IMG/VR virus record: IMGVR_UViG_3300031857_000360
Coordinates: 1 to 46,123 of that record
Length of the DNA stretch: 46,123 nt
From: a virus
Direction: 5' to 3' (one strand)
Each line of letters opens with the position of its first letter. The first letter of the stretch is position 1. The notes under the pieces are model-generated. The model was not told the DNA's origin and did no database searches. It saw only the letters and a program-made list of their open reading frames with translations. Shown here piece after piece: positions 1-46,123 of this stretch. The position numbers and the translations under genes were made by a program.

Positions 1-95
1 ACGCCCATGATCGACGCCTCCGTCTCCAGCCACACGCGCTCGAAGCCGGTGGTGCTGTTGATGGTCTTACGCAGGCGGATGGTGAAAGTCTTCAT
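1..95 (-). CDS. Start of an unknown leftward gene (runs off the left edge)
   Basis: Thirty-one codons are visible, beginning MKTFTIRLRKTINSTTGF. The ATG at 95-93 is preceded on the minus strand by CAGGAG seven bases upstream, a strong ribosome binding site, which fixes the start. I do not recognise the product; the alternating polar and hydrophobic residues look like the first beta strands of a small protein. It is the first leftward gene after the large non-coding region and points the same way as the replication genes at the right edge. If the genome is circular or permuted it could head that operon, which is inference. Confidence 0.6.
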   Translation of the reverse strand, partial: MKTFTIRLRKTINSTTGFERVWLETEASIMG

Positions 96-346
96 AGCAA
101 ACTCCTGAAACAAGATGTGGTGGGTCGAAGCCGCAGACACAACATGCGCTGCAGTCGCATCAACCCCCTCATCACCCGGGGGAAACTCCCATTTACGAGG
201 CCCAGCCATCCAAGGACCCATAATTGTAAAAGCGGTACCAGTGGCTGTGGGCTCGTCGGGTACCCCCCACGACCCCCCTGACTGGACGGCGAAGCAGGAA
301 ATGAAAGGGGGAACCCCTCCCAAAATTTCCCTTCTTATTCCGCGAT

Positions 347-519
347 GACCACCCGACCACCCCGACCATGTCTCCAGAAAACCGTACTCCCTATAGCCCC
401 ACCGCTAGCTAGTTTTTCTATTTCTATGGTCTTCCTGGTCAGAAGAGAGATAAGAGTAGGAAAGACAAGCACTTAACCTAGACCACACCACGTGGTCATA
501 ACCTGGTCGGACGTGGTCA
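347..519. promoter_or_regulatory. Cluster of GACCAC/GTGGTC words, operator- or origin-like
   Basis: GACCAC occurs at 347-352 and 355-360, with GACCAT at 364-369. Further on there is an inverted pair GACCAC...GTGGTC at 481-497, containing the palindrome CCACGTGG, and a direct repeat CGTGGTCA at 491-498 and 512-519, about two helical turns apart. Clustering in the only long non-coding region suggests binding sites for a regulator or initiator. No protein partner can be named. Confidence 0.35.
387..396 (-). promoter_or_regulatory. CTATAGGGAG element resembling a T7-type initiation region
   Basis: Read leftward, the sequence is CTATAGGGAG, identical to the -5 to +5 part of the T7 class III promoter. 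The upstream recognition half of the T7 promoter does not match, and no single-subunit RNA polymerase gene is visible in the window. It lies upstream of the leftward gene at 1-95. This is a weak candidate promoter only. Confidence 0.15.
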
Positions 520-549
520 CCCCCCACCCCCCTACCCCCGATATTCCCC

Positions 550-577
550 AAAAAACAAGGGTGACCCCCTGTCACCC
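550..577 (-). terminator. Intrinsic terminator after the D5-like helicase gene
   Basis: On the minus strand the sequence forms a perfect 7-bp stem, GGGTGAC/GTCACCC, with a five-base loop (AGGGG), followed at once by TTGTTTTTT. It lies about 40 bases beyond the stop codon of the leftward helicase gene. Stem, short loop and T tract are the classic rho-independent arrangement. Confidence 0.85.
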
Positions 578-616
578 TCGTCTGATAACACCAGTTTGTC
601 TCTCCCCGATAACACC

Positions 617-21868: not shown

Positions 21869-22034
21869 GGACCAGATCCTGACCCAGCAACAGCAGACGG
21901 TGCAGGAACTGCGGGGTGTCGTGAGCGACTTGGTGAAGACGACGATCAACCTGACGGGCAGTGACCGGGTCCACGACCGGGACCTGAATGATCTTCGTGC
22001 TCGGATTGACAAGCTTGAGGCAAGGCGTGGCTGA
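21750..22034 (+). CDS. Small membrane-anchored coiled-coil protein
   Basis: The 94-residue protein has a hydrophobic segment FASVVTGVIMIPVEIG (about residues 23-38) followed by a Gln/Leu/Asp-rich coiled coil (LTQQQQTVQELRGVVSDLVK). This resembles haemolysin-XhlA-like or inner-membrane spanin/holin accessory proteins. It lies in an alternative frame over the end of the MazG-like gene and overlaps the next gene by eight bases. Lysis is the most likely role, by context only. Confidence 0.6.
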   Translation: MPAKSPKLTFGQIWNTITQTGTFASVVTGVIMIPVEIGRRDQILTQQQQTVQELRGVVSDLVKTTINLTGSDRVHDRDLNDLRARIDKLEARRG

Positions 22035-24567: not shown

Positions 24568-25688
24568 TGAGCCTTGGATACCAACCTGGTATGAGCACCC
24601 TGCCGAACTTCAACGCCCCCAACTTTTCGGGTGTTGGTTCGCAGCAGTTCAACTTCCAGCAGCCGAACATCCGACAGTTCCTGCCCAGCTTTGAGCAGAC
24701 TTATAGCCCGGCAGGTATGGGGGCTTATCGTCAGAATCCTCTGACTGGTCCTAGTGTCCAGCAGTTTTGGGGTTCGATGCTTAACGATTACAACCTGGCC
24801 AACCAGCTGAACCAGGCGAATTTTGGCCGTAACCAACAGGCTGCAGACATGTTCTTGGGTGCCACCCAGGCATCTCTTCAGGACATGTACCGAAATGTCA
24901 CGCCTGGAGTTCAGACTGCCTTTGCCTTCCAGCAGGCTGGACAGCAGCAGGCGGAGCAGGACTATCAGCTGTATTTGCAAAACCTTGCTCGTACTCGCCA
25001 GGGTATGGATCAAGTGCAGCAGAATGTGGCGAACGCATATGAACAGGCGCTTCAGCAGGCTGGCCAGGGTTACAACCAAGTTGCTTCGGACATGGCTCGC
25101 GCCATTGCCCAGCGCAAGGAGTCTGACCTTGAGCAGATGATGGGTGAGATTGGTGCGTTTGCTGGTACTGAAAGTCAGCTGGAGGAGGCCAAGCGTCAGC
25201 GTGGTGCCAGCTACGATCGTGAGATGTTCGGCACCCTTGCTGGTCTGCAGGCGCAGACTTCCAAGGAGAAGGCTGACATCTTGCAGCGCAAGGGCGACGT
25301 GTTTGCCAACCTTGGCACCGCGATGTCCAACTTGTCTGCAACGCTGGACAAGACCACCTTTGACGTTGGTGAGCGTCGTAATGCGTGGAATGAACTGGGT
25401 TCCAACCTTGGCATGGCATCGGCCCAGTTGTTTGGCAGTATCTCTGGTAACGTGGCCCAGCTGACTCAGGCTGGCTATAGCCAGTATGCCAACATGATTC
25501 AGTCCAACCCAATCCTGGGTGCGACGTTTACGCCCACCCTGATCTCCATGGCGGAAGTGGCTCAGCGTTACGGTCAGCCAGGTGGCTTCATTAGTCCGGA
25601 CTTCATTGGTCCGGGTGGGCCAGTCTACGGTCGCAATACCCGCGTGCCTCGTCTGATGCCTGATGGCACTTACCGTCTTACTCCCTAA
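24567..25688 (+). CDS. Gln/Ala-rich internal virion-type protein
   Basis: The 373-residue protein starts with an extended Asn/Phe/Gln/Pro leader (GSQQFNFQQPNIRQFLPSF). It continues as long amphipathic helices rich in Gln, Ala and Glu (residues ~70-260) and ends in a Gly/Pro tail. There are no enzymatic motifs. Helical Gln-rich proteins after the nozzle gene in podoviruses are typically ejected with the DNA. The start shares bases with the previous stop (TAATG). Confidence 0.6.
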   Translation: MSLGYQPGMSTLPNFNAPNFSGVGSQQFNFQQPNIRQFLPSFEQTYSPAGMGAYRQNPLTGPSVQQFWGSMLNDYNLANQLNQANFGRNQQAADMFLGATQASLQDMYRNVTPGVQTAFAFQQAGQQQAEQDYQLYLQNLARTRQGMDQVQQNVANAYEQALQQAGQGYNQVASDMARAIAQRKESDLEQMMGEIGAFAGTESQLEEAKRQRGASYDREMFGTLAGLQAQTSKEKADILQRKGDVFANLGTAMSNLSATLDKTTFDVGERRNAWNELGSNLGMASAQLFGSISGNVAQLTQAGYSQYANMIQSNPILGATFTPTLISMAEVAQRYGQPGGFISPDFIGPGGPVYGRNTRVPRLMPDGTYRLTP

Positions 25689-25702
25689 CTTGAGGACACC
25701 AC

Positions 25703-27586
25703 ATGGCTAAGGACTACACTGCCTCTCCGTACACGGTTGCACCCAACCAGGATCTTGCCTTTCAGCTTGCTGCTTTGAATCAGCAGGACCGGGCAATTCG
25801 GGCGGGCATCGGTGGTTCGTCCTCAGGTTCCGAGGTCAACATCAATGACTCTCTTGCCCTTGAAGAGTTGATGAACCAGCGTGCTGAAGAGCGCAGCATT
25901 CGCCAGCGTGCATTGGACGCTGATGCTCGCCGCCGCCTGGAACGAGAGCAACTTGGCTTTGACCTGGAGCGTCAGAGGCAGACGGGGCTTGGTGCTCTTG
26001 ATCTTGAAGCTGCAGGCATCCGCCAGAAGGAAGCACTGAACAAGGAACTGTGGCCTGCTGAACTTCAGCGCATGCGGGATCAGGGCACCACACAGAACGA
26101 CTTGAATCGAATGGCCCAAGAGGAAAGCGCTCGGGTTGCGGCTGAGGCAGCAGCCAAGATCAAGATAATGGAGTTGAAACTGTCTCAGGCTGACACTGAC
26201 TCTCAGGCAGAAGTTGCAGCCAAGTTGCTGAAGAAAAGAGAAGAACTTGCTGCAATGCAAAAGCAAGTGTTGGACGCTCAGGCTCTTGCTGCAGAGAGTG
26301 ACAGTAATGTCAAGAGAGGTGTAATTTCCGCACGTGAACGGACCAAGTCTCTTTACGACGCCACGTCGCAGTATGACAAGACGTTGTCCAGTGCTACCTT
26401 CCAAACCATTGCCGACGACCTGTTGAAGGACCCCAATGTTGCAGGTACTTCCCTTCCTCAAAGCACTCTGCGTAGTTTTGTTACAGGTGTTGGTCGTGCG
26501 GGAGAGTCCTTCATTGAGATGTTTTCTGGAGATCGCACAGCTGATGTTGGGCTAAGGGCTGATTTCCGTCCTAGTACGAAGCTGGCTATTGATTCTGGTT
26601 CTACGGTCATGGGTCCAGCTCAGGAGAACCATCGCAATCTGATTGCGGCTGCTTCTCTTTGGAACGGGGGCGTCTACCGAAAGGACCTTAGTGATGTGTA
26701 TGGGCTGGAGGATCAAGCTGATCCGCTGATTGGTGATGTGCGTCGTGCACAGGAGTTCAGCCACAACATCGTGGCCGAGACCGCTGTTCGCACTTTGATG
26801 CAGGGAGTCTTCTCCCCAACTGCAGGTTCTGGAGGGCAGATGGGTTCTCCTATGGACATTGGCATCTCGAGTCGAGAGGGTGCTCGTGATGCCATCAAGT
26901 TGGTGCTGCGTGAACTCTCGGCGATTCGTGCTGATCCAAGCATCATGCAGGATCCTGACAAGGTGAGAGCTCGACTGGCCCCCATCATCACTCAGGGTAC
27001 CAATCTGATGTTTGGCGAAACCAACCGCGCCGAGTCCAACAAGGAAGGAATCTTTGTCACCATCGTGAATCGCGCACTGGCAAACGCAGCATCAGCCGGT
27101 ACCAAGTATGCGTCTGAGATTGATCCCCGTGGTGCGATTGATGCAAGCACTGTGCAGAAGGCAGCCATGGCTCAGAGCTTCAACATGGTTCGTGAGTTGG
27201 CCCCCATCATGCGGTCGGGTACTTACCTTCAGTACGCTGACGTGGATTCGCTGGCCACCTCCCTTGGCACCTTTAGGGGTGCTCTTGGTGAGGAGATTGA
27301 CCCACTGACTGGAAAGCCGTCTGGCGTCTTCAGCATTGCAGCTCTCCCTGAATCTGGTTCCAAGGATGCAGCTATCCTTGGTCTGATTGCCCCCGAGTTG
27401 CGAGAGCGGTTGTCTAGGTCCAAGGAGGGCGCTCGCAGCCTGAGGGAACGAGAGCTGGCTCTGAAGCAGGCAGAACTTGCCGCGAAGCAGGCAGAAGAGA
27501 ACGAACCCCTGCAGCAGGTTTTGGGCACAGGTAAGCGTACGCAAAAGAAGATTGATATTCTGGAGCGTATGCGAGACAAGAAGTGA
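25703..27586 (+). CDS. Long coiled-coil virion protein
   Basis: The 627-residue protein has a strongly charged helical region at about residues 50-220 (RRLEREQLGFDLERQRQTGL and similar), then a globular-looking middle and a final Lys/Gln/Glu helix (LKQAELAAKQAEENEPLQQ). GAGGA about six bases before ATG 25703 supports the start. It most likely belongs to the set of internal or ejected proteins, with no identified activity. Confidence 0.65.
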   Translation: MAKDYTASPYTVAPNQDLAFQLAALNQQDRAIRAGIGGSSSGSEVNINDSLALEELMNQRAEERSIRQRALDADARRRLEREQLGFDLERQRQTGLGALDLEAAGIRQKEALNKELWPAELQRMRDQGTTQNDLNRMAQEESARVAAEAAAKIKIMELKLSQADTDSQAEVAAKLLKKREELAAMQKQVLDAQALAAESDSNVKRGVISARERTKSLYDATSQYDKTLSSATFQTIADDLLKDPNVAGTSLPQSTLRSFVTGVGRAGESFIEMFSGDRTADVGLRADFRPSTKLAIDSGSTVMGPAQENHRNLIAAASLWNGGVYRKDLSDVYGLEDQADPLIGDVRRAQEFSHNIVAETAVRTLMQGVFSPTAGSGGQMGSPMDIGISSREGARDAIKLVLRELSAIRADPSIMQDPDKVRARLAPIITQGTNLMFGETNRAESNKEGIFVTIVNRALANAASAGTKYASEIDPRGAIDASTVQKAAMAQSFNMVRELAPIMRSGTYLQYADVDSLATSLGTFRGALGEEIDPLTGKPSGVFSIAALPESGSKDAAILGLIAPELRERLSRSKEGARSLRERELALKQAELAAKQAEENEPLQQVLGTGKRTQKKIDILERMRDKK

Positions 27587-27588
27587 AC

Positions 27589-27957
27589 ATGGTCAACTGG
27601 CGCTTACTGAGCGCAGACATCTGCCGAGACCACGCCGCCGATGGGAAGGCCCGCTTGTCCCTCGGCCGGATGCTGGACCTCGACGCCCGCACCGACCTGC
27701 CCATCCTCAACCTCACCCCCCTCCCCCTGGTCGTGGGGGGACCTTACCTTCGCCCGAAGCAGGTCCGGGCCTGGTTCTGGGAGGTGCGCCAGCTCCGTGC
27801 CATGCACCGTCCCTGGTCCATGCTCGTCTCCAACTACGACCCCATCGAGCGGGTATCGACTCTTCACATTGGCACCATTACACTACCGGAAGTGGTGGAG
27901 CGGTATGCCCGCATGTGGCGGGGCCGCACCCATCGCTTTAATCCAATGGTGCTTTGA
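27589..27957 (+). CDS. Unknown 122-residue protein
   Basis: The protein has Trp/Arg-rich segments (KQVRAWFWEVRQLRAMHRPW) and no recognisable domain. It uses more C-ending codons than its neighbours, closer to the phosphoesterase gene. The ATG at 27589 comes two bases after the previous stop; an overlapping GTG at 27583 is less likely. The 3' end is two bases before the next gene. Confidence 0.55.
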   Translation: MVNWRLLSADICRDHAADGKARLSLGRMLDLDARTDLPILNLTPLPLVVGGPYLRPKQVRAWFWEVRQLRAMHRPWSMLVSNYDPIERVSTLHIGTITLPEVVERYARMWRGRTHRFNPMVL

Positions 27958-27959
27958 CA

Positions 27960-28766
27960 ATGCCAGTAGCAGCCCTTGCCCCAATTATCAGAGTTCTTGG
28001 TCCACTGGCAGCGTCATACCTGCTGGAGAACCTGTTCACTTCGGGCCTGCCTGACACTGCATTTACAGACGCATCCGGTAAGATTCGTCCGGGTGGTCTG
28101 GACCCTGCAACTGTGCAGGCCGAGTACAACAAGGCTGTTGCTGCTGCTGGTCGCAAGAAGTTGAAGCCTGGCACCGATCCGTTCAACGAATTTGTGCGGG
28201 GCAAGATGTCCTCCTTCCTTGGCAAGGTGGATGACCCCACATCCATCTTGGGTCGTGCTGCCGGCGCTTACAAGACTCCGCCGGGTAAGGTCCGATCTGG
28301 ACTGGGTAAGGCTGGCAGCATTGGCCTGAGGGGCCTTGGTGGTTTGGGCGCGATTTCAATCGGCCTTTCCTCGGTGCCCATGCTGATGAGCATGTTTGCA
28401 GGAGATGGCGAAGGCGGTGGGATGGCCCAGGGAATGGGTGGTCCCCCCACGGGTGAGGGAGGTGACCTCATGGAGCTGCTGGGTTCCCTGTCAGAGGCAG
28501 GGGCTAGCCCCGAGGAACTTCGTGGGGACTATCTGCAGAGTGAGGCGGCAGTTCGTGGTCTGGATCGTGCGTCGCTGGCCCGTGGTCGAGTGGACTACAG
28601 TGGCGTGGCCCCAGGTCTTGAGACGTTGATCCGTGGCTATGAAGACGAGCTCGGACGGATTTCATATCAGGAGCCCATGTCGCTGGCACAGGCCTATGCA
28701 CTGAAGGGCATCTTTGATCCTTCTCAGTCTGACCTTAGCATGCGCGACGTCATGGGAGGAATGTGA
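27960..28766 (+). CDS. Gly-rich protein with two hydrophobic segments
   Basis: The 268-residue protein begins with a hydrophobic stretch (PVAALAPIIRVLGPLAASYL) and has a second one near residues 125-148 (LGGLGAISIGLSSVPMLMSM), followed by a Gly/Met linker. Both could cross or enter a membrane, fitting a protein that helps form a DNA channel on infection. The C-terminal part is helical and acidic. No family is recognised. The stop overlaps the next start (ATGTGATGG). Confidence 0.6.
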   Translation: MPVAALAPIIRVLGPLAASYLLENLFTSGLPDTAFTDASGKIRPGGLDPATVQAEYNKAVAAAGRKKLKPGTDPFNEFVRGKMSSFLGKVDDPTSILGRAAGAYKTPPGKVRSGLGKAGSIGLRGLGGLGAISIGLSSVPMLMSMFAGDGEGGGMAQGMGGPPTGEGGDLMELLGSLSEAGASPEELRGDYLQSEAAVRGLDRASLARGRVDYSGVAPGLETLIRGYEDELGRISYQEPMSLAQAYALKGIFDPSQSDLSMRDVMGGM

Positions 28767-29287
28767 TGGCCGCAGCCCGCAAGAAGACTCCGGCTAAGAG
28801 GGGCAAGCCAGCTCCTCCGGCTCCGGCTCCGGCTCCAGCTTCAGCTCCAGCGCCTACTGCTCCAGCTGAAACAGCTGGAGCTGTTGCTCGACGTTTGAGC
28901 ATGATCCGTAACAATCCCGGAAAGACGACACTAGCCTTGGGTGGACTGGCTGGTCTTGTCGGTGGACTTGTGCGAGCTTCGCAGACGCCACCGGACTACT
29001 CCAACATTGAGCGTGCAGTGACTGAAGCAACCCGACGAGCAAAGTCGGAACGAGTTGCTCAGATCCTTGAGCGTAGCCGCATGGAACAGGCCATCGCTCA
29101 GAACCAGGCGCGCCTTGCACAGGCCAACCCTACCCTTTACACTTCCGTCATGGCTGGGCGCAAGGTGCCTAGCGGTGCCGTAGTGCTGGGCGGTAGGCCC
29201 CGTACGGATCTGATGAGAGAACTGGCAGCGTCGATGGACAGCGGCGCATTCCAGAAGAAAGACCCGCTGTCCGAACTGATGGGATAA
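28766..29287 (+). CDS. Protein with histone-H1-like Lys/Ala/Pro tail and one hydrophobic segment
   Basis: The first ~40 of 173 residues are ARKKTPAKRGKPAPP followed by alternating Ala-Pro, resembling an H1-like DNA-binding tail. A hydrophobic Gly-rich segment (LALGGLAGLVGGLV) follows, then a charged helix (RRAKSERVAQILERSRMEQA). A basic tail plus a membrane segment would suit a protein that travels with the DNA. A 9-bp hairpin lies within the coding sequence at 28859-28881. No family is recognised. Confidence 0.6.
   Translation: MAAARKKTPAKRGKPAPPAPAPAPASAPAPTAPAETAGAVARRLSMIRNNPGKTTLALGGLAGLVGGLVRASQTPPDYSNIERAVTEATRRAKSERVAQILERSRMEQAIAQNQARLAQANPTLYTSVMAGRKVPSGAVVLGGRPRTDLMRELAASMDSGAFQKKDPLSELMG
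28859..28881 (+). other. Perfect 9-bp hairpin inside a coding region
   Basis: GCTCCAGCT (28859-28867), loop GAAAC, and AGCTGGAGC (28873-28881) form a perfect stem in the mRNA just after the Ala-Pro coding repeats. It has no T tract. It could slow ribosomes between tail and membrane segment, or be a by-product of the repeated GCT/CCA codons. Confidence 0.5.
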
Positions 29288-29291
29288 CCCA

Positions 29292-29804
29292 ATGCCGACC
29301 TCCCTTGTTACGCAGCAGTACCCCGACGACTTCTTCATCCTGCATTACCACGGAACTCTGGCGTCGGACACCATTCTGTTCTGGGCAGATCGTGACTACG
29401 TGATTGACCAGATCTCGGTCACCATGCTGACCATGTCGAGTGCAACTTCGACGAATGGTCGAGTGTCGTTCCTGGTTACCTCCGACGCTAGCGACTTTAC
29501 TCCGTCCAACACCATCTGCACGGCCGACTGCCGAACCGTTGCCAACGATGGTACGGGTGCGGCTGGTACGACCTTTGTGTTTGACAGTGAACGGTTCCCG
29601 TCTGGCGTGACCAAGCAGTTTAATTCTGCTGGTGTTGCGCTGACGTCTGTTGCCACCCTGTCGGCAACTGGTGCAACTACGGCTGTTGCCTTTAGTTCTG
29701 CGAACAACACCCTGCGTCGTGGCCAGTTCCTTACGATGAGTCATACGACCAATACGGGTGCAACTGGTCTTGTTCAGATCCGTCTGCGTTCGCGCATCGT
29801 CTGA
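29292..29804 (+). CDS. Beta-rich virion protein, decoration- or fibre-like
   Basis: The 170-residue protein is rich in Thr, Ser, Ala and Val, with alternating hydrophobic residues and few charges (VAFSSANNTLRRGQFLTMSH). It is similar in length and character to the minus-strand protein at 39311-39820. Such proteins often coat capsids or form short fibres. It precedes the micro-ORF and terminator that close this operon section. Confidence 0.6.
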   Translation: MPTSLVTQQYPDDFFILHYHGTLASDTILFWADRDYVIDQISVTMLTMSSATSTNGRVSFLVTSDASDFTPSNTICTADCRTVANDGTGAAGTTFVFDSERFPSGVTKQFNSAGVALTSVATLSATGATTAVAFSSANNTLRRGQFLTMSHTTNTGATGLVQIRLRSRIV

Positions 29805-29818
29805 AAGGAGGAGACGCC

Positions 29819-29860
29819 ATGAAGAAGAAGGGCCCTAAGAAGGGCGGCGGTTGCCGCTGA
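29819..29860 (+). CDS. 13-residue basic micro-ORF MKKKGPKKGGGCR
   Basis: The ATG is preceded by AAAGGAGGAG, the strongest ribosome binding site seen in the late region, ending four bases before the start. The peptide is six Lys/Arg, four Gly, one Pro, one Cys. It sits between the stop of a virion-protein gene and an intrinsic terminator, so an efficient binding site here is hard to explain unless it is translated. It could be a real micropeptide, a leader that tunes read-through of the terminator, or chance. Confidence 0.5.
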   Translation: MKKKGPKKGGGCR

Positions 29861-29880
29861 TTCACTGATCCCCCGGAACG

Positions 29881-29916
29881 GGCCCCGGTTGCAGAGAAAT
29901 CGCACCGGGGCCTTTT
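29881..29916 (+). terminator. Intrinsic terminator in the late operon
   Basis: GGCCCCGGT (29881-29889) pairs perfectly with ACCGGGGCC (29904-29912) around a 14-base loop, followed directly by TTTT. It lies only four bases before the start codon of the 1349-residue gene, so that gene must be reached by read-through, a nearby promoter, or reduced expression. Confidence 0.85.
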
Positions 29917-29920
29917 CATT

Positions 29921-32900
29921 ATGCCAGAGCAAATCCCACAACTGGACGAAGACGGATTCCCCGCGTTTGAGCCGGTGCGTATTTACGATGCACCGGCCAC
30001 GATCCTCACTCAAATTGCAGATGGAGAGGGATCCCTTGGTCGTGCCATTCGTACGATCATGGCGCAGGAGTCCTTGAGTCCTGCAGAACGAGACTCTTAT
30101 GCCACTCGTTTGAAGAGGTCATATGGGGGCAACCCTTTGGCAGATCTTGCCATTGACTTGGGAACCAATCCCCTCGTTTGGTTGTTGGCTACGGTATCGC
30201 CCATTGGCAAGAAGCAGTTCCTTGCTTCAGAGGGCCGACTTCTTGCAGGCATGTCCGACATGCGCAAGGGTGGCTTTACCAATCGTCAGTTCGTGAAGAT
30301 TGCAGAGAGCTTGCGTACCTTGGGTGGCGTTGGACTTATCAGTGCCACCGAGACACAGGCGCCATCCATCATCGTGCAGGCCATGCAGAGCCGCCTGCAA
30401 AAGTTCCAGAAGGAAGAGGCGAGGATCATCGGTCCCGCTCGTGCTCGCCTTCTGAAGAAGCTTGGCATTGACGACTTTGATCCATCGCGAAGCAATGACC
30501 CACTGCTTCGAGAGCTGAACGTACAGCTGCATTACTGGGGGTCAGGCCATGCCGACAAGGCAACCTACAACCTGCCCAATGTGTTTGACACGGTGGCAGC
30601 CAAGGTCCGTAGTGCTCGTGTCGAGGCAAAGACGGGAGCCAAGATCTTCGATGGGCCTGAGAGTGGGTTGACCCTTCCACAGTCTGTCGTCAACGAACTG
30701 GAGAAGTCCAAGGTTGGACTGAAGCCTGGAGCTCGATTTGCTTTGGATGATGCTGAGTATGAGATTGTGGATGCAGTCCGAGTGGTCAACGAGTCCACGT
30801 TGGAGCAGGCCCGTCAGTTCTTCCCGAAGGCCAAGGCTGGAGAGAAGATGGGAGCCCACAAGTCGGCTGTCAAGTACGCGACTGTTGAGGACAACTTCAA
30901 CAATCTGCTTCACGTTGAGGGCTACGACCGAAATGCAATTCTGGAGTGGGCTCGAGACAACAACATTGAACGGGAGTTCTTGGAGTATGCCCAGGCTTCG
31001 GAGAAGCTACGCAACCACTTCAAGACTCGACTGTTTGGCAAGTTGAATCCTGATGGCAGTGTCCCCCCAACATTTACCTTGGACTCCGACAAGGTGCTGC
31101 GTATCTATTCCCAGTACCAGAAGACCCAGGGCAACCCCGAGATGTTGGCTGAACGCATTGCGCTTCAGGAAACCGTGGGGGGACAGTTCTTCGATGTGAT
31201 GGACAAGATCCTGCCAGGTTGGGTCAAGAAGGAAATCAGGAAGGGCAACTACCGAATTGACCGATCGCAGGTGGACGAGGTGCTTTCAAAGTACCTGACT
31301 CCCCAGTTGGATTCTCCCTACCTGTCTCGAAACACTGGTGTGCTGTTTGGCCGTGGAGAGATGGGTCGTCCAACTCCACTGGGCCCTACGCATACGGATG
31401 CCTTGATGCGTCGTCGTGAGCAGGGCCTGAGCTACGACGAAGTCAACGGCATTGTCTTGCCTCGAAGCAAGAAGGACCTGTTCTACAACCCGGAGGATCT
31501 GCGAGTCCTTCAGGACCTTGCTAGTCGGTATGGTCCTCGAACGGACAAAGCAAAGGTCTTTGTGCCTGGAGGTGCGGTTGGTGATGGGCCGGTGGATCTG
31601 GGCAGGCTCATCAGTTCAACTGACGAGTCCATCCGAAAGGCTGTTGGTACCCAGCGACGTGTGTATGCGTTGAGCATGGACCATGAGCTTTCGATGCGTA
31701 AGTACATGCGTGACTCGCAGGCAATGATTACCCTGCATGCTCAAGCCATCCCCGACAACTTGTGGGGTGTGCTTGAGAAAGCCATCCGTACTCCGGCGAG
31801 GAAGCTGGCAGGCGCAGAGGGGCGAAAGCTTGCTGCAGACCCAGAAGCCTTGCGTGCACTGAAGGAACTTGGAGTACAGGAAGAGGACCTCAAATTCCTT
31901 GACACACAGTCAGGCACTGCACCGGAGGTGTTGACTGCGATTCCAGCACTGCAAGCACGGTGGGACGATCTGCAGAAGATGAAGTCCACACTGCCTGTCC
32001 TGAAGGGCAAGGCCCGTGACACGCTTGCTGCAAAGATTGTTGCGGCTGAGAAGAGGCTGGACAAGTTGGCGTCTGTTACGAGTCCTGACGATGTGACCTT
32101 GTTGAACAAGGCGATGCGTCGAGACATCAGCATGGCAGATGCTTTACGTATCACTCTTCCACGAGAAAGCCTTGAGGTGCAGGAGCACTTCAAGTTGCAC
32201 ACGCTCCCATCCTTGTTTGGTGGTGCCAAGCCGGCTTCGTTGGTGTCGCTGCGTGGTGCACAGCATGCTCGGCAGTTGGCCGGTCGATTTGCTGACACGG
32301 GCATGGCCAAATGGTTGGAAACCAATGGTGGCCAGATTGGCAAGGACATGGTGCGTACGGCTCGTGACTACTCCACAAAGTCGGGGTACGAACTGGATGC
32401 CGCATACCGAGCCAGTGGACTCACTGGCTACCTGTACGCAACCCACCTTGGTTTCAACGTGGTGTCTGCAATGTGGAACGCCATGCAGCCTTTCCAGTGG
32501 GCGACCACCTGGATGGGGGGACGTGAGGTCCTGTCAGCGTACGGCACTGCACTCAAGCAGTTGGGTTCCTATACCAAGGAGAGAGTGACAAAGTACGGTG
32601 TTGGACCTTTGGATCCTCACATCCGTCAGCAGCTGTGGAACAAGCACATCCGTACCTCAAACTTGTTTGGTCGAGACCTGCTTGGTCTTACGGATGACAT
32701 TGTTTCATCCATGGACAGTGCTGCCATCTCGCAGCCTCTGCAGACCAAGCCGAATCTCTTCAAGTACCTGACTGTGGACGCGCCCCTCAAGCTGTTCCAG
32801 AAGGCAGAAGAGCTGAACCGCATCGTCATCGCCGAAGCTGGACTCAAGTGGTATGAGCGTATGCAGCGTGAGAGTGGCCTGCGTATGTCAATGAATGAAG

Positions 32901-33970
32901 TGCTGGACCAGGTGCAGGTCATGCAGTCCCTGGTGAACTTCAGTCCAAGTCCTACCACGCAGCTTCAGATGTTCCAGCGTGGGTTCCTAGCAAACCCCAT
33001 GATGCGGATGTTCATGCAGTATCCCCTGCGTTCCGTGTCGAACGTGCTTGTTGGACAGCAACTGGGTGGAGGCGTTCGAGAGTTTGGCGTTGGACCTCTA
33101 AAGACCGAGATCCCAGCGTTCATCGGTGACCTCTCCCGCATGTTTGGTACGGGTGCAGTCATCTACGAAATCGGCAAGAACGTCCTGAACCTTGATCTCA
33201 CTTCAGGCTTGGGTGCTGCAGCCGTGACGCAGCTTCCTGGTCAGATTGCCATTGGAAACCTGCCGCTGCCACCCACGGTGGACATCCCTGTCAAGTTGCT
33301 GAAGGGCATAGCGACACAGGACATGGACCAGTTCCGACAGGCAGCATTCCGACTGCTACCTGGTGGCCTTGCCCTGCAGAAGACTCTTGGCGTGTTGCCT
33401 GAGATCCCAGGTATTGGAGGCTCCTACGGGATCGTCCAGTCGCAGTACGCTGACTGGTCAAACAAGAATGAACAGGGCCTAGTGCCTGTGTACCAAAGCG
33501 ACGGCACACTTCAGGGGTTCCAGTCTCCGCTGGAGCTTGTGATGCGTGGCATCGGTGCCGACTTCAAGAAGCACCAGTCACCTCAGGAAGCAACGAAGTT
33601 CCTGCTGGCCAACCGCGCTCAGATGGTCGAGTTGCGTCGCCGCTACAAGGACGCGGTGCTTGGCAACAACATGAGTCTGGCCATGAACATCGAGGGCGAA
33701 TACCGCAAGCGCTACGGCGTACCCATGACCGTGAAGCCTGGGGAGTGGGACCGAGCAGTGTTCATGCGTGAAGCATCGGTCAGCGAGCGCATGCTGGACA
33801 CCATGCCATCAGATGTACGCGGTATCTACCAGCAGTCTCTTGAAGGCGCAGCCTTTGCACCGGCGATGGGACTACCCGTGGGGGGACTGTCGCAAGGTGA
33901 GACTGCTAAGCAGCGTGCGTCAATCCGAGGATTCAACGTCGATGTCGTCAACCCCGCCGAGGGGCAGTAG
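29921..33970 (+). CDS. Giant virion protein, probably internal/ejected
   Basis: At 1349 residues this is the largest protein in the window. It is helical and Lys/Arg/Glu-rich for most of its length, with hydrophobic parts at about residues 830-865 (YLYATHLGFNVVSAMW) and 1065-1115 (ALL/GAAAVTQLPGQIAIGN-type segments). I see no confident lytic transglycosylase or peptidase motif. Large helical proteins at the end of podovirus late operons are usually ejected to build the DNA channel. The ATG at 29921 has no ribosome binding site and starts right after the terminator T tract. Its 3' end overlaps the convergent gene by 51 bases. Confidence 0.7.
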   Translation: MPEQIPQLDEDGFPAFEPVRIYDAPATILTQIADGEGSLGRAIRTIMAQESLSPAERDSYATRLKRSYGGNPLADLAIDLGTNPLVWLLATVSPIGKKQFLASEGRLLAGMSDMRKGGFTNRQFVKIAESLRTLGGVGLISATETQAPSIIVQAMQSRLQKFQKEEARIIGPARARLLKKLGIDDFDPSRSNDPLLRELNVQLHYWGSGHADKATYNLPNVFDTVAAKVRSARVEAKTGAKIFDGPESGLTLPQSVVNELEKSKVGLKPGARFALDDAEYEIVDAVRVVNESTLEQARQFFPKAKAGEKMGAHKSAVKYATVEDNFNNLLHVEGYDRNAILEWARDNNIEREFLEYAQASEKLRNHFKTRLFGKLNPDGSVPPTFTLDSDKVLRIYSQYQKTQGNPEMLAERIALQETVGGQFFDVMDKILPGWVKKEIRKGNYRIDRSQVDEVLSKYLTPQLDSPYLSRNTGVLFGRGEMGRPTPLGPTHTDALMRRREQGLSYDEVNGIVLPRSKKDLFYNPEDLRVLQDLASRYGPRTDKAKVFVPGGAVGDGPVDLGRLISSTDESIRKAVGTQRRVYALSMDHELSMRKYMRDSQAMITLHAQAIPDNLWGVLEKAIRTPARKLAGAEGRKLAADPEALRALKELGVQEEDLKFLDTQSGTAPEVLTAIPALQARWDDLQKMKSTLPVLKGKARDTLAAKIVAAEKRLDKLASVTSPDDVTLLNKAMRRDISMADALRITLPRESLEVQEHFKLHTLPSLFGGAKPASLVSLRGAQHARQLAGRFADTGMAKWLETNGGQIGKDMVRTARDYSTKSGYELDAAYRASGLTGYLYATHLGFNVVSAMWNAMQPFQWATTWMGGREVLSAYGTALKQLGSYTKERVTKYGVGPLDPHIRQQLWNKHIRTSNLFGRDLLGLTDDIVSSMDSAAISQPLQTKPNLFKYLTVDAPLKLFQKAEELNRIVIAEAGLKWYERMQRESGLRMSMNEVLDQVQVMQSLVNFSPSPTTQLQMFQRGFLANPMMRMFMQYPLRSVSNVLVGQQLGGGVREFGVGPLKTEIPAFIGDLSRMFGTGAVIYEIGKNVLNLDLTSGLGAAAVTQLPGQIAIGNLPLPPTVDIPVKLLKGIATQDMDQFRQAAFRLLPGGLALQKTLGVLPEIPGIGGSYGIVQSQYADWSNKNEQGLVPVYQSDGTLQGFQSPLELVMRGIGADFKKHQSPQEATKFLLANRAQMVELRRRYKDAVLGNNMSLAMNIEGEYRKRYGVPMTVKPGEWDRAVFMREASVSERMLDTMPSDVRGIYQQSLEGAAFAPAMGLPVGGLSQGETAKQRASIRGFNVDVVNPAEGQ

Positions 33971-38240: not shown

Positions 38241-39311
38241 TTAGGACCAGAAAGCGCTGTCACCAAGTCCACCAGCACCGGCTGAGACTTGACCAGCAAA
38301 GACTTCAAGACTGAAAACTGGAGTGTCATCTGCTGTGTAGACGTGGTAGACGTAACTGCCATCAGTATACGTAAAGCCTCCGCCTTGGCCTTTCAGTTGG
38401 CTTCCTTCATAGCGAATGACAATCAAACCAGAACTGCCTGCACCACCATCAGTGGTGGTCGTTGTGCCCTTTCCACCGCCCCCTCCAGAACCGGTATTTG
38501 GTAGGGCATCTCGATTGACACGACCCAAGATCAAGTCTCCATGGCCGCCAATGTCAGACCCACCTTGACCAACATCCAATTCAGCTACAGCAATGTTATG
38601 ACGGCCACCACCGCCGCCACCAGCAACAAGGAAGCCCCAATGGTTTACCCCGGCTCCGCCATTTCCAGACTTAGTTGAACTGCCGTTGACACCTGCTGCA
38701 CTACGTCCGCCACCACCGCCTGCTGTGCTTGCACTAGCAGTTGCTGCGAAGTTATTACCACCTATGTAACCCCAGATCTCCCCCTCAAGATTGTTGGCCG
38801 CTCCTCCAAGACGAGAGACCGTAGCACCTGCGCCACCGCCTCCACTTGGTCCAGTTCCACCAGCTTGTGCTGTAGCTGTACCTGCACCACCTCGTCCACC
38901 TCGTCCACCACCTTCAACTGAAATGCCCCAAGTGTCATCGGCATTATTCAATGAGGATGCTACTCCAGTGCTTGCGTTTCCAGCGGAACCACCCGCTCCA
39001 CCTGCACCAACGTATACGTTGTAGAAAAAGGAGGACGGATCGCCATAGGCGTGGTCATCCAGGTTTAGGTTCACTGCAGAGAAGATTTTCACACCGCCAG
39101 CTCCGCCACCACCACCGGGGTGTCCTGCAGAACCACTACCTCCTCCGCCGCCACCTCCAACAAGCAGAACATCCACGTTCAAATTGGCTGGGGCTACACC
39201 ACTCCACACAGCAATGTTTGTGGTCGGCAGGGGCACAAGGCGATTCTGTTCATAGGTTGCACCTCGAAGTGTTACAGTGTTCGAACGAACACTTCGAATG
39301 CGAGCGCGCAT
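38241..39311 (-). CDS. Glycine-rich tail-fibre/adhesin-type protein
   Basis: The 356-residue protein has a beta-rich N-terminal part, then many poly-Gly and GGAGG segments (VLLVGGGGGGGSGS, GGGGAGG). The C terminus has SSGLIVIRYEG and YTDGSYVYHVYT. This is the glycine-rich domain type used in phage adhesins, where Gly-rich loops form polyglycine helices that contact the host. It is out of place in the replication region and more A/T-rich than its neighbours. The ATG at 39311 overlaps the previous stop (TAATG). Confidence 0.75.
   Translation of the reverse strand: MRARIRSVRSNTVTLRGATYEQNRLVPLPTTNIAVWSGVAPANLNVDVLLVGGGGGGGSGSAGHPGGGGGAGGVKIFSAVNLNLDDHAYGDPSSFFYNVYVGAGGAGGSAGNASTGVASSLNNADDTWGISVEGGGRGGRGGAGTATAQAGGTGPSGGGGAGATVSRLGGAANNLEGEIWGYIGGNNFAATASASTAGGGGGRSAAGVNGSSTKSGNGGAGVNHWGFLVAGGGGGGRHNIAVAELDVGQGGSDIGGHGDLILGRVNRDALPNTGSGGGGGKGTTTTTDGGAGSSGLIVIRYEGSQLKGQGGGFTYTDGSYVYHVYTADDTPVFSLEVFAGQVSAGAGGLGDSAFWS
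39276..39293. other. 18-bp perfect palindrome near the adhesin start
   Basis: AGTGTTCGAACGAACACT (39276-39293) is AGTGTTCG, AA, CGAACACT, about 20 bases inside the adhesin gene. It could be an operator, a recombination site or a chance feature of the Arg/Ser/Asn codons there. Confidence 0.45.
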
Positions 39312-39820
39312 TAGATGCTGCTCCAAATCACGTTAGCCAGCTTGGTAGTGGTGCTAGACGAGAAGGTGATCTCGATAAGTTCGGCACCTGTTCCATCAAC
39401 AATGAATGCAGCATTGCCAAGGGTACTACTGTTCCAAAGACTCTTGATGTCTCCAACTGTGGCAACAGCAGCAGGTGGGAACATATCAGTTCCATTGACT
39501 GTTGCAGTCTTAGTAGCAGACAGAGAGCTGATTGTCTGAAGACGAGCTGTACTTGCAGAGACCCACACACCAAGATCGGGAAGGTAAGACCACAGGTGCA
39601 CATGGACGATTGGGCTTGTGGTTCCTGATTCAAAGATGGGCATGAACTTCAGGTAGTTTGTCACACCTGGAATCACAATGCGACCCGCAGTCAAGTTGGT
39701 GGTGGGTCGCGTGGCCGTAGCCGTGTTGACGTTTGGCTGCGAAGCAACAGTCGTTGCGTTTGCAACATCGCCAAGGTGCAGATTGCGATGAGGGGTCACG
39801 ATGCTGATGTGGTCGGACAT
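39311..39820 (-). CDS. Beta-rich virion-type protein paired with the adhesin
   Basis: This 169-residue protein is rich in Thr, Ser, Ala and Val with few charges (TKTATVNGTDMFPPAAVATV). It resembles decoration or fibre-base proteins and the plus-strand protein at 29292 in length and character. It overlaps the nuclease gene at its start by 25 bases and the adhesin at its end, so the pair probably moves and is expressed together. No family is recognised. Confidence 0.6.
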   Translation of the reverse strand: MSDHISIVTPHRNLHLGDVANATTVASQPNVNTATATRPTTNLTAGRIVIPGVTNYLKFMPIFESGTTSPIVHVHLWSYLPDLGVWVSASTARLQTISSLSATKTATVNGTDMFPPAAVATVGDIKSLWNSSTLGNAAFIVDGTGAELIEITFSSSTTTKLANVIWSSI

Positions 39821-42574: not shown

Positions 42575-43026
42575 CAGTCATCTCCGTATGAGCCGCCGTA
42601 GTAGTTGGAGTCCGAGACCAGCTCCTTGAACTCCCGGAAGTTCTTGTTGTAGTATTCGCTGACCAGGCGGCAAAGCATATCAAGGGTCTCAGAGGGGAGG
42701 CTGGACAGATCCAAGATCTGTTCTTTAATCTGCACCTTGGGCATGTTGGGCACGCCTGTGTCCGTGGTGTGTGCTTCGAGGACAATCTCGTCGATCTTCG
42801 CACGCTCCAGTTCCCACGAGGGTGGAAGTGTGGCGTAGGTGTCGCCGTATGGCACACGCTCATCGTCAAGGTATTCGTAGTCGATGGTGCCGATGATGTT
42901 GATGTAGCTGGCCTCAGCCTCATGAGGGAATCGTTCCAGCAGGTGGATCATGGCGCGGCACTCACGTGGTGTATTGCACATACGTTCGAGACTGTCGACG
43001 TCGATGTTGAACTCAACGGTGCTCAT
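42574..43026 (-). CDS. Unknown acidic 150-residue protein
   Basis: The protein starts MSTVEFNIDVDSLERM, is acidic throughout, and ends in a Tyr/Gly/Ser/Asp tail (SNYYGGSYGDD). No motif is recognised. GAGG seven bases before ATG 43026 supports the start. It is coupled to the uracil-DNA glycosylase gene by an ATGA overlap and to the sigma-like gene by a TGATG overlap, so it belongs to the replication operon. Confidence 0.6.
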   Translation of the reverse strand: MSTVEFNIDVDSLERMCNTPRECRAMIHLLERFPHEAEASYINIIGTIDYEYLDDERVPYGDTYATLPPSWELERAKIDEIVLEAHTTDTGVPNMPKVQIKEQILDLSSLPSETLDMLCRLVSEYYNKNFREFKELVSDSNYYGGSYGDD

Positions 43027-43700
43027 GGCGTTACCTCGAAGGGTGAGAATGGGGGGACGACACGCGGGCTGGATGCTACAGGCATCGAGCCAGTGACTGC
43101 GGAGTGGACCAAGGTCATGTGGTCGGCGACCGGGTGCAGGAGGTTGCGGGAACGGAGGACGGCGGCGGGGTGGAAGGTGGTGAAGAGTTGCCAGTCCCCC
43201 CACAGTCCGGTGGGTGTGCCTTGCTTGGTGAAGGCGGAGGCCAGGGACCAGGACTTGCCGTGGGTGAACTTGGTCACGGTGCTGATGGCATGGGCGCCAG
43301 TGCACAGCAGGATCTTGGAGACGTGGGGTTGGATGTACTGGCCGACAGTGTCAAGGTCAGTGGCTGAGAACTTCGGGAAGCAGCAGCGGAAGTGACGGGG
43401 CTTGGGTGGGGCGGCAGCTGGGGTGTAGCAACGGGCGGTGTTGAGGAGGAGGACGGTGGCGTGGGGCAGGATGGCGGGGAGGTAGATCTCCTTGAGCATC
43501 TTGCCTGAGGGCCCGACGAACGGTTCGTTAGAGCGGTCCTCCTGGAAGCCGGGGTTCATGCCGAGCACGGCGACGATGGGCGTGGATGGGGAGAGAGGTT
43601 GGGAGCCAGGAAGAAAAACCCCGGGGACGCCGGGGTTCTTCGCGTACTTGTGCAGGTCGCACGCAGTGCACTGGGGTTGGGGCAGAACCAGGAGATTCAT
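43023..43700 (-). CDS. Uracil-DNA glycosylase, family 4-like iron-sulfur type
   Basis: The 225-residue protein has an N-terminal Cys pair (CTAC, residues 11-14) and further Cys at 91 and 106-107, likely holding an iron-sulfur cluster. The active-site loop is VLGMNPGFQEDRSNEPFVGP (starting about residue 45), followed by LLLNTARCYTP and a TFHPAAVL motif near the end. It would remove uracil from DNA during phage replication. GAAGGA nine bases before ATG 43700 supports the start. Family 4 rather than 5 is a judgement from the motif sequence. Confidence 0.85.
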   Translation of the reverse strand: MNLLVLPQPQCTACDLHKYAKNPGVPGVFLPGSQPLSPSTPIVAVLGMNPGFQEDRSNEPFVGPSGKMLKEIYLPAILPHATVLLLNTARCYTPAAAPPKPRHFRCCFPKFSATDLDTVGQYIQPHVSKILLCTGAHAISTVTKFTHGKSWSLASAFTKQGTPTGLWGDWQLFTTFHPAAVLRSRNLLHPVADHMTLVHSAVTGSMPVASSPRVVPPFSPFEVTP

Positions 43701-43981
43701 GTGGTGGGTTCCTTCTGTGGGGGGATGCACCAATCCCAGATGGCTTCGTACTGCTCAGGCACGATGAGCTTGCGGCACATGTCGTGCAGGTCCTTGTCGA
43801 TCATGAAGGCGTAGGGGAAGAGCTTGTCTCCGTCTGGGTGGGATTCGAGGATGCACAAGGTGGGGACTCGTGCTCCTGTGTCTTCATGGCGCAGATCCAC
43901 AAGTGTGATGGCGGGAGTGGGTCGCTGGCGGAATGCGTGCCACAGAGTACGCAGGTTAGTGGCGTTCGCGTCGGATGGCAT
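43697..43981 (-). CDS. Small unknown protein between VWA and glycosylase genes
   Basis: The 94-residue protein starts MPSDANATNLRTLWHAFRQR and has a beta-rich middle (AITLVDLRHEDTGARVPTLC). No family is recognised. GGAG about nine bases before ATG 43981 supports the start, which is 13 bases after the stop of the VWA gene. It is coupled to the glycosylase by an ATGA overlap. Confidence 0.6.
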   Translation of the reverse strand: MPSDANATNLRTLWHAFRQRPTPAITLVDLRHEDTGARVPTLCILESHPDGDKLFPYAFMIDKDLHDMCRKLIVPEQYEAIWDWCIPPQKEPTT

Positions 43982-43994
43982 GAGCTGTTCTCCA

Positions 43995-46058
43995 TCAGGA
44001 GTTGAGGGACTGACCGATACCACGCACCAGATTGCAGGCGATGGGCACCGCATCGAGCGGGCTCTCGACTGCAAAGCTGTGACCGACATTGTACTGTCGG
44101 TTCAGGGTCTTGGTATCAACTCCGATGCCAACACAGAAGACGGGAGTAGGAATGGCGGACACGAGCTTGCGCACCTCGTCTTCGGTCTCGAAGAACCGCC
44201 TGGTGATTTCGACGGCCGGCATGTAGGGATGCTCGACTCCACCACAGGGTTCGCCATCGGTGAGGATGATGATGATGCGCTGCGCCTCGGGGTACATATG
44301 GGTGAGGTGCTGGTCGAGAGTGAAGAGTGCAGATGCAGTGGGTGTGCCACCGCCTGGCTGAGTGTTGAGCAGATCGTCGTCGGTGTCAAGTCGGCGGAGG
44401 GCGCAGGCTGCCAAGTCTTCGCGAAATCCAGATGCCATGTAGAGATCGCCGACATTGCCACGGTAACAAGGGGAGCTGGGGTTGAGGACGCGGGAGTCGA
44501 AGGCAAACGATTCGACCTTGACGTTGGGGTTGCGAGCCAGTCCGTCACGCAGACCGCCGACGAATGCGCATGCGAGTTGGAGCAGGTTGTGTGGCACGTT
44601 GTCGAGGTGACGGTTCATGGAACCGGAGGAGTCGACGAGCACGCCGATGGCGATCTGACCGGCACCAGACTCGGGGCGAACGGAGAAGATGTTGGGATCG
44701 GAGAAGGCGGCGTAGCGGAGAAGGTTGCCCTCATCGAGTTGGCCGTCAAGGTTACCGTGTTCGAGGGGCGGGGGATTGGGGACGAACCAAGCAGAGGCTG
44801 AGATCTGGTCTGCGATCTGCTTACGGTACTTGGCCTGGCATTCGGTGGAGTCCTTGGCGTAGACCTTGCATCGGTTACGGATCCAATCGGGTGGGGGGAG
44901 GATGACGCCGGGCACGATGGGGTTGGAGTTGTCCTCCTCGGTAGTGGGCTTGGCTTCGACGACTGAGCTCTTGCCATTGAGGATGTGGCCACGGAACTTG
45001 GAGATGGTGCCGTCGAGATTGTTGAAGTTGCTGCCCGTGTTGACGGAGAAGCGCTTGTTCAGTTCCTCGTCGGTGTTGAGCGTGATGGCAAGAGTCTTGA
45101 CGAGGTCGGAGATGGCACGGAGCTTGAGGCCGTCGTCGTCAGGAGTGGCAAGGATCTTGGGCCAGGCAGCGACGGCAGTGTCATAGGCGGACTTGAAGGA
45201 CCGAGGGAAGGTGAGGCGTGTGTTGTGCGGGTTGAGGTTCCACGCCATGGCCATGCAGAAACGGCGAAGGTCAGAGCGGGTGGGCGACTTCTTCGAGACG
45301 TGAGACTGCATTGTGTCTGTCTCGGGCAGGGAGACGGTGTCTTGTGCGGCGAAGATGTCGGACCAGCCAGGCCACGTGGCGAGGATGTGATTGCGGATCT
45401 TCTGGATCTGCGTAGCCCACCAGATGTCGAGAGTGCACGAGGCGATGACTGCATCCCTGTTACGCAGGTTGGGAGTGGCGGGATCGGGGTCGAGATTGCA
45501 GGAACTACGAAGCAGTGTCAATGTCTGGAGCCCCTCAAGACAGAGTGGGGGGATGACCTGACGCAGGGCTTCGAGCGCTTCGAGTCCGTGGCCGGTGATG
45601 GCATCGGCCAGGAGGTAGTGATCGCCGACCTTCTCCAAGGTGCGGGGAGCAAGAAGGTAGTTGGGAAGGACGACGGAGTCTGGATGCTTTACGAAGTCTG
45701 CGTGGTCTGAAACGGCGCGCTCGAAGTCATCGAGACTGAAGAGACCATGATCCTTGCGGATATAGAACACAGCCTTGTGGAGGAGCTCACGCTGGAGGGC
45801 CTTGCTGTTGTAGGCGGGGTCGTTGCGATAGCGCTGCCACAGGATGCCGAAGAGATTGTTGGCGGTGTCAAGGACGGTGTAGCTGGTGTTTGTATCGAAT
45901 GTGAAGGTGGTGGGGGTCTTGACCCACAGACTCCACACGTCCTCGGCTGGTTGGGTGAGAGTTTGGATGTGTGAAGTGCCCATGGAGCCGGGCTCGGAGG
46001 GCATGTCGAACCAGCCATAGGCGTCGATGTCGAAGCTGTCGATGACTTTGCGAAGCAT
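43995..46058 (-). CDS. CobT-like protein with C-terminal VWA domain
   Basis: The 687-residue protein has a large helical N-terminal part and, from about residue 440, LDEGNLLRYAAFSDPNIFSV leading into a VWA domain. That domain has a complete MIDAS site: DSSGS (476-480), GGGTPTASAL (Thr 572/574) and LTDGE (Asp 601). This is the CobT layout. In the cobaltochelatase-like systems the VWA protein works with a CobS/MoxR-type AAA+ ATPase to remodel a target. The upstream gene, of which only the end is visible, may be that ATPase. The TGATG overlap couples the two genes. Confidence 0.75.
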   Translation of the reverse strand: MLRKVIDSFDIDAYGWFDMPSEPGSMGTSHIQTLTQPAEDVWSLWVKTPTTFTFDTNTSYTVLDTANNLFGILWQRYRNDPAYNSKALQRELLHKAVFYIRKDHGLFSLDDFERAVSDHADFVKHPDSVVLPNYLLAPRTLEKVGDHYLLADAITGHGLEALEALRQVIPPLCLEGLQTLTLLRSSCNLDPDPATPNLRNRDAVIASCTLDIWWATQIQKIRNHILATWPGWSDIFAAQDTVSLPETDTMQSHVSKKSPTRSDLRRFCMAMAWNLNPHNTRLTFPRSFKSAYDTAVAAWPKILATPDDDGLKLRAISDLVKTLAITLNTDEELNKRFSVNTGSNFNNLDGTISKFRGHILNGKSSVVEAKPTTEEDNSNPIVPGVILPPPDWIRNRCKVYAKDSTECQAKYRKQIADQISASAWFVPNPPPLEHGNLDGQLDEGNLLRYAAFSDPNIFSVRPESGAGQIAIGVLVDSSGSMNRHLDNVPHNLLQLACAFVGGLRDGLARNPNVKVESFAFDSRVLNPSSPCYRGNVGDLYMASGFREDLAACALRRLDTDDDLLNTQPGGGTPTASALFTLDQHLTHMYPEAQRIIIILTDGEPCGGVEHPYMPAVEITRRFFETEDEVRKLVSAIPTPVFCVGIGVDTKTLNRQYNVGHSFAVESPLDAVPIACNLVRGIGQSLNS

Positions 46059-46123
46059 CAGAAGGGCTCCAGGTTGGTGGTGGTGGCGACGTCACCCATG
46101 ATGCTGGGGAACTTGCCAGCGAT
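46058..46123 (-). CDS. 3' end of an unknown gene, possibly a CobS/MoxR-type ATPase
   Basis: The last 21 residues and stop are visible: IAGKFPSIMGDVATTTNLEP plus Phe. The stop overlaps the VWA gene's start (TGATG). No ATPase motif is inside the window; the suggestion rests only on the usual pairing of CobT-like VWA genes with an adjacent CobS/MoxR gene. It runs off the right edge. Confidence 0.45.
   Translation of the reverse strand: MAGKFPSIMGDVATTTNLEPF

Follow-up and report, generated by a model that had tools for sequence, protein, structure and literature searches.

A fast-diverging VWA protein in a phage replication operon, a likely adaptor of a two-gene remodelling pair of the MoxR/CobS-CobT kind

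The right end of the window (by which we mean the whole stretch of DNA analysed, a 46,123-base IMG/VR virus contig of class linear) carries a gene for a VWA protein, P0001, which on balance is likely to be the adaptor of a two-gene, translationally coupled remodeller of the MoxR/CobS-CobT kind, whose target would be fast-changing and probably host-encoded. At the level of sequence, the pair, its gene order, the complete MIDAS and the complete ATPase of the relatives are established. Phage CobST or MoxR-VWA pairs have already been published, and the pair of the window is a divergent new member of them; what is new with respect to the published accounts is the pattern of evolutionary rates and its dissociation from the tail genes. 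Viral CobST pairs are widespread and usually labelled as vitamin B12 genes, and the family described here represents a testable counter-case, in which the motor and the predicted pore-facing finger are steady while the parts expected to bind the target evolve at almost the pace of tail genes, without tracking them. If the target were a host complex, a class of published 'auxiliary metabolic genes' would consist of host-takeover machines. The features on which the description is based are the following:

46058..46123, minus strand: end of the gene for the partner ATPase (AAA+; MoxR clade, similar to phage CobS), with the C-terminal 21 residues and the stop codon, the remainder being absent from the record
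43995..46058, minus strand: VWA protein P0001, CobT-like, complete open reading frame of 687 amino acids
45675..46058, minus strand: variable N-terminal region, residues 1-128, from identity and dN/dS
45069..45674, minus strand: helical domain, residues 129-330, with a conserved WPGW motif, from the AlphaFold2 model
44874..45068, minus strand: linker, residues 331-395, low-confidence and variable, from the model and the segment rates
44655..44873, minus strand: predicted finger, residues 396-468, from its slow change, its conserved tip and analogy with NorD
43998..44654, minus strand: VWA domain, residues 469-687, from the Foldseek match to NorQ-NorD VWA complexes
44619..44633, minus strand: MIDAS motif 1, D476-x-S478-x-S480, from 26 homologues
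44343..44345, minus strand: MIDAS threonine T572, invariant in nine close-family rows
44256..44258, minus strand: MIDAS aspartate D601, invariant in 26 homologues
43697..43981, minus strand: small gene of about 94 amino acids and no known family, behind the pair in relatives

A preliminary description of this DNA had pointed to a coupled upstream gene running off the window and had taken it for a probable ATPase, and both points were borne out. The TGA of the upstream frame (46060-46058) overlaps the ATG of P0001 (46058-46056) in the sequence TGATG, so that the ATPase and VWA genes look translationally coupled, and the 21 residues lying inside the window read IAGKFPSIMGDVATTTNLEPF, followed by the stop. 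When a hidden Markov model of the relatives' ATPase was run against the window, this remnant was the best of 1391 frames (E 7.5e-6) and aligned at model positions 319-339 of 339, that is, at the final 21 positions; the C-terminus of the ATPase in the relatives has the form ...GKFP...TTTxxEPF. An AAA+ gene was present in every relative holding the upstream gene, with full-length homologues in the relatives L006-L012. Their product of about 339 amino acids matches Pfam AAA_5 (E 1e-22) and phrog_249 (the phage CobS family, PHROG 249, 'porphyrin biosynthesis'; E 1e-30), has CbbQ and NorQ among its best solved relatives, and possesses a complete set of motifs: Walker A GPxGCGKTS, Walker B LDExNR, sensor 1 TTN, arginine finger and sensor 2 STR. 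A scan of 84,980 cellular genomes with short patterns, a weak method, gave no relatives of this ATPase. In the relatives, the order is primase and then the AAA gene, while the primase of the window stands at its left end (617-2014), and window positions 1-616 and 46058-46123 match one and the same primase-to-ATPase interval. Since both ends match this interval, the contig looks opened between primase and AAA, with about 4 kb missing, and, judged by this comparison of gene order, the record probably represents an almost full genome cut open at this point. Several relatives of the window genome reach 48-52 kb.

As regards the association of the two genes, P0001 gave no relatives in a single-sequence search of IMG/VR, nor any match by tblastn against 50,697 phage records (INPHARED) at E 0.01, and therefore the DNA polymerase of the operon was used as the way in. 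This defined the close relatives, seven contigs with a DNA polymerase 86-90% identical to that of the window, all of which carry a VWA homologue (39-47% identity by tblastn) preceded, with the same overlap, by the ATPase gene. In addition, a motor-only search with the ATPase alignment alone retrieved 35 virus contigs, two of which break off within the ATPase; in the remaining 33, where sequence is available, the VWA gene stands directly behind the ATPase in every case, a figure that includes near-duplicate contigs and hence fewer independent cases. The co-occurrence across phage genomes that had been proposed as a check was thereby found. Thirty of these VWA calls were made by HMM and three, near-identical to one another, by the motifs LDQTGSM and TDG; the spacing between the genes goes from a small overlap up to 140 bases, and the contigs span 5 to 479 kb, jumbo genomes included. 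The order ATPase then VWA is shared by two cultured phages, Microcystis phage Mae-Yong1326-1 and Gordonia phage FlyingTortilla; Bacteroides phage BS162P1 holds an unannotated gene of similar size behind its ATPase match, and Rhizobium phages have the two genes in reverse order.

The protein itself is complete, as the preliminary description had stated, with a MIDAS formed by DSSGS (476-480), GGT (570-572, including T572) and TDG (600-602, including D601) in a motif search of the protein; among 26 homologues D476 and S480 are invariant and S478 is kept in at least 90%. Generic models match the VWA domain weakly (VWA_2, E 3.9e-5, under the model cut-off), and the assignment is nevertheless secure thanks to the structure model, the MIDAS and the conservation among homologues. 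The AlphaFold2 model, of moderate quality (pLDDT 73.8, pTM 0.50), has, in order from the N-terminus, a helical domain, a linker modelled with low confidence, a finger of two helices and the VWA domain. The WPGW motif occupies residues 229-232, within a block (residues 200-330) whose pLDDT is mostly 79-93. The linker is non-acidic, with eight D/E and eight K/R in residues 331-396. In the predicted finger, a helix (398-423) is followed by a loop and a second helix (443-450), with the fingertip motif GNLDGQLDEGNL; in the monomer model, residues 396-452 form these two helices with a tip that is conserved but of low confidence. By analogy, the position of this element would match that of the NorD finger. 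Its residues G439, D442 and E443 are kept even in distant phages and, together with those of the MIDAS, belong to the small set of positions that all, or almost all, of the 26 homologues share.

Family placement was approached through profiles. Alone, P0001 gave a weak match to PHROG 1576 (E 3.5e-5), and it matched none of the CobT models PF11775, PF06213 and TIGR01651 at E 0.01, while among its wider relatives PF11775 was matched by 13 of 27 and TIGR01651 by 9 of 27. The close-family profile aligned with that of distant phage VWA proteins with an hhalign probability of 99.9 over 443 columns, starting in the helical region with WPGW and running through to the C-terminus. In turn, solved CobT headed the matches of the wider-family profile (E 1e-27 and 1e-21), ahead of NorD, and it kept this place whether the annotated Rhizobium CobT was included or not. 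The close-family profile on its own matches generic VWA domains only, so that the link to CobT rests on the wider family and its intermediates. Foldseek gave NorQ-NorD VWA complexes as the best PDB matches of the model (E 8.7e-6), and the best viral folds (BFVD) were phage VWA/CobT-like proteins, with ORF892 of Acidianus two-tailed virus (ATV) also listed (E 2.6e-4). Thus, the CobT-type VWA fold expected beforehand was upheld, and no structure contradicting it was seen. Two other candidates were discarded: the phmmer matches of P0001 in the PDB were due to chance (e.g. TOM20), and the NCBIfam model gliding_CglB scored 20.6 bits against a cut-off of 200, reflecting generic VWA similarity. A protein motif search showed the HExxH metallopeptidase motif to be absent from P0001 and its family, HEVGH being present in L004 and L005 only. 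In L004, the Rhizobium phage CobT (4513-6849) bears this metallopeptidase-like motif N-terminally, in the order CobT then CobS.

That MoxR/CobS-VWA pairs are known, as the preliminary description had stated, is confirmed for phages and viruses by the descriptions of CobST (PMC8651126), of the MoxR-vWA chaperone pair of jumbo phages (PMC7824862) and of Hardycor1 and ATV (PMC7911831). The viral CobS-CobT (cobST) clusters used for comparison (PHROG 249 and 1576; Microcystis phage Mae-Yong1326-1, Gordonia phages and HHTV-2; PMC8651126) resemble the window pair in having an AAA_5 ATPase and then a VWA gene, an arrangement that the Microcystis and Gordonia phages share, and there is homology over 443 columns to distant phage VWA proteins; P0001, however, has diverged far from them, as its E value with PHROG 1576 and the lack of a tblastn match indicate. 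The group 2.2 jumbo-phage pair (PMC7824862) likewise has a MoxR ATPase adjoining a vWA protein, but P0001 has no HExxH, whereas the Rhizobium phage CobT has one. The p618/p892 pair of ATV is also a viral MoxR and VWA pair, with ORF892 as a fold match, although it belongs to a different virus type and its reported role is extracellular tail growth. Among cellular systems, NorQ-NorD and CbbQ-CbbO share with P0001 the helical N-terminal domain, the linker, the predicted finger, the VWA domain and a C-terminal helix, the NorD VWA being the best fold match and CbbQ/NorQ counting among the best solved relatives of the ATPase; nevertheless, the NorD fingertip motif GRxLL/I was not seen in P0001, and neither nitric oxide reductase nor rubisco was noticed in the window record. 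In CobT, an acidic linker joins the N-terminal and VWA domains, and such a linker was seen in the Rhizobium phage CobT. With cobaltochelatase CobT (9uka; TIGR01651), the fingertip and VWA segment (LDEGxL, DxSGSM, DGxP) aligns via the family profile, while P0001 differs in falling under the CobT thresholds, in its non-acidic linker and in the lack of CobN in 29 virus records.

The NorQD system offers a working picture. There, the NorD finger enters the pore of the ATPase and the C-terminus touches the post-sensor-1 loop, while turnover twists the VWA against the N-terminal domain, stretching a linker which is required for function (PMC13036017). The same layout is predicted for P0001 from its model. 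By this analogy, the ATPase would form a hexamer, in the pore of which the finger ahead of the VWA strand, with its LDEGxL tip, would sit; ATP turnover would then turn the VWA domain relative to its N-terminal counterpart, and this rotation would exert a pull on the target, which the N-terminal region, linker and MIDAS would bind. That target would be a fast-changing, probably host-encoded protein complex encountered during replication or host takeover.

Compared with its neighbours, the VWA gene evolves much faster. In the relatives, the VWA protein is 40-51% identical to that of the window, as against 85-91% for PolA, and among eight genomes of the phage group the mean identity is 57% for VWA, whereas PolA reaches 91% and the Sak4-like protein 96% (the ATPase, in seven genomes, 79%), only the tail region and a few unassigned genes being as variable as VWA. 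Within the protein, the N-terminal region and the linker are the fastest-changing segments, the former with 23-35% identity between P0001 and L010/L009 and a dN/dS of 0.24-1.37 in six pairs, while the finger is the slowest (dN/dS 0.03-0.36). A slow finger combined with a fast N-terminus and linker would be expected if the motor interface were constant and the target interface variable. A more specific form of this idea, which we put forward tentatively and with limited confidence, is that the VWA protein serves as a specificity factor which faces the host and diversifies quickly: the AAA+ motor and finger would be kept constant and the N-terminal region and linker varied so as to pull apart variable host complexes, for example defence complexes.

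The strongest alternative, a serious one even if somewhat short of probable, is that nothing more lies behind the divergence than recombination swapping old alleles, or a loosening of constraint, without a changing target exerting any selection; this would be compatible with any function. Indeed, the histories of PolA and VWA conflict, the window being nearest to G001 by PolA and nearest to G004 and G014 by VWA, which indicates that recombination is active; moreover, dS is near saturation between window and relatives and is elevated in the VWA gene as well, so that some of the divergence may go back to allele replacement, and the fast change could reflect relaxed constraint instead of an arms race. 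Against this, dN/dS is raised too (0.27 in VWA versus 0.05 in the ATPase for L008-L010, the closest pair analysed by codon), and the rates differ among segments of one gene.

The location of the pair may point to another role. As the preliminary description had it, P0001 belongs to a replication operon, with PolA, a uracil-DNA glycosylase (UDG), an ERCC4 nuclease, a PDDEXK exonuclease and a Sak4-like protein alongside, and replication-type neighbours are found beside the pair in other phages too. The pair might thus help the phage's own replication proteins, e.g. when a polymerase or recombinase complex is loaded or taken apart; we regard this as unlikely, since those operon proteins are 73-100% conserved across the group and the adaptor is not.

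It is less probable still that the pair acts as a chaperone of virion assembly, maturing tail or head proteins. There is precedent in print, a role in virion maturation having been reported for ATV p618/p892 and the same proposed for group 2.2 jumbo phages (PMC7824862), and ORF892 appears among the fold matches, but the pair belongs to the replication operon, and the structural genes are on the other strand. In the co-variation test, the tail-chaperone version lost weight: G006 and G003 are 90% identical in VWA and 30-45% in their tail genes, the VWA type being unchanged by the replacement of the tail module, whereas in G001 the VWA falls to 68% while tail gene g21988 remains at 90% and most structural genes above 80%. 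This independence from tail swaps, in a set of only eight genomes, makes variable tail proteins a less likely target; a substrate conserved in the head or the tail core would be compatible with it. The genes swapped between G006 and G003 correspond to the tail region of the window at 21988-33970, most replication genes of the two being above 75%.

Very doubtful is the reading proposed for tailed viruses (PMC8651126), that the viral CobST pair joins host CobN and raises cobalamin supply: the VWA of CobT type, the ATPase of CobS type and the printed proposal itself, by which a virus using host CobN need not encode CobN, count in its favour, but no CobN turned up in 29 virus records searched over their full length (the window and many relatives are fragments; the same model was positive in 5 of 14 control genomes), no large ribonucleotide reductase was found in the window or near relatives, P0001 fails the CobT models, and a conserved host CobN would not predict a fast-changing adaptor. 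The preliminary view that a role in cobalamin synthesis is unlikely is strengthened by the two absences, short of proof given the fragments and a possible host CobN. For the remodelling pair, a host-encoded target seems more likely than a tail or a cobalt chelatase.

Some further observations concern the surroundings of the pair. At 38241-39820, between the ERCC4 nuclease and the PDDEXK exonuclease, the replication operon includes a protein rich in glycine (PHROG 2295), with a variable one beside it; both are different or missing in the relatives. The small gene downstream of P0001 shows 79-83% identity over 75-85% of the open reading frame in close relatives, and 58% in L055. Also behind the pair, the family-4-like uracil-DNA glycosylase (43023-43733) is kept in this position in the relatives, with 52-91% identity.
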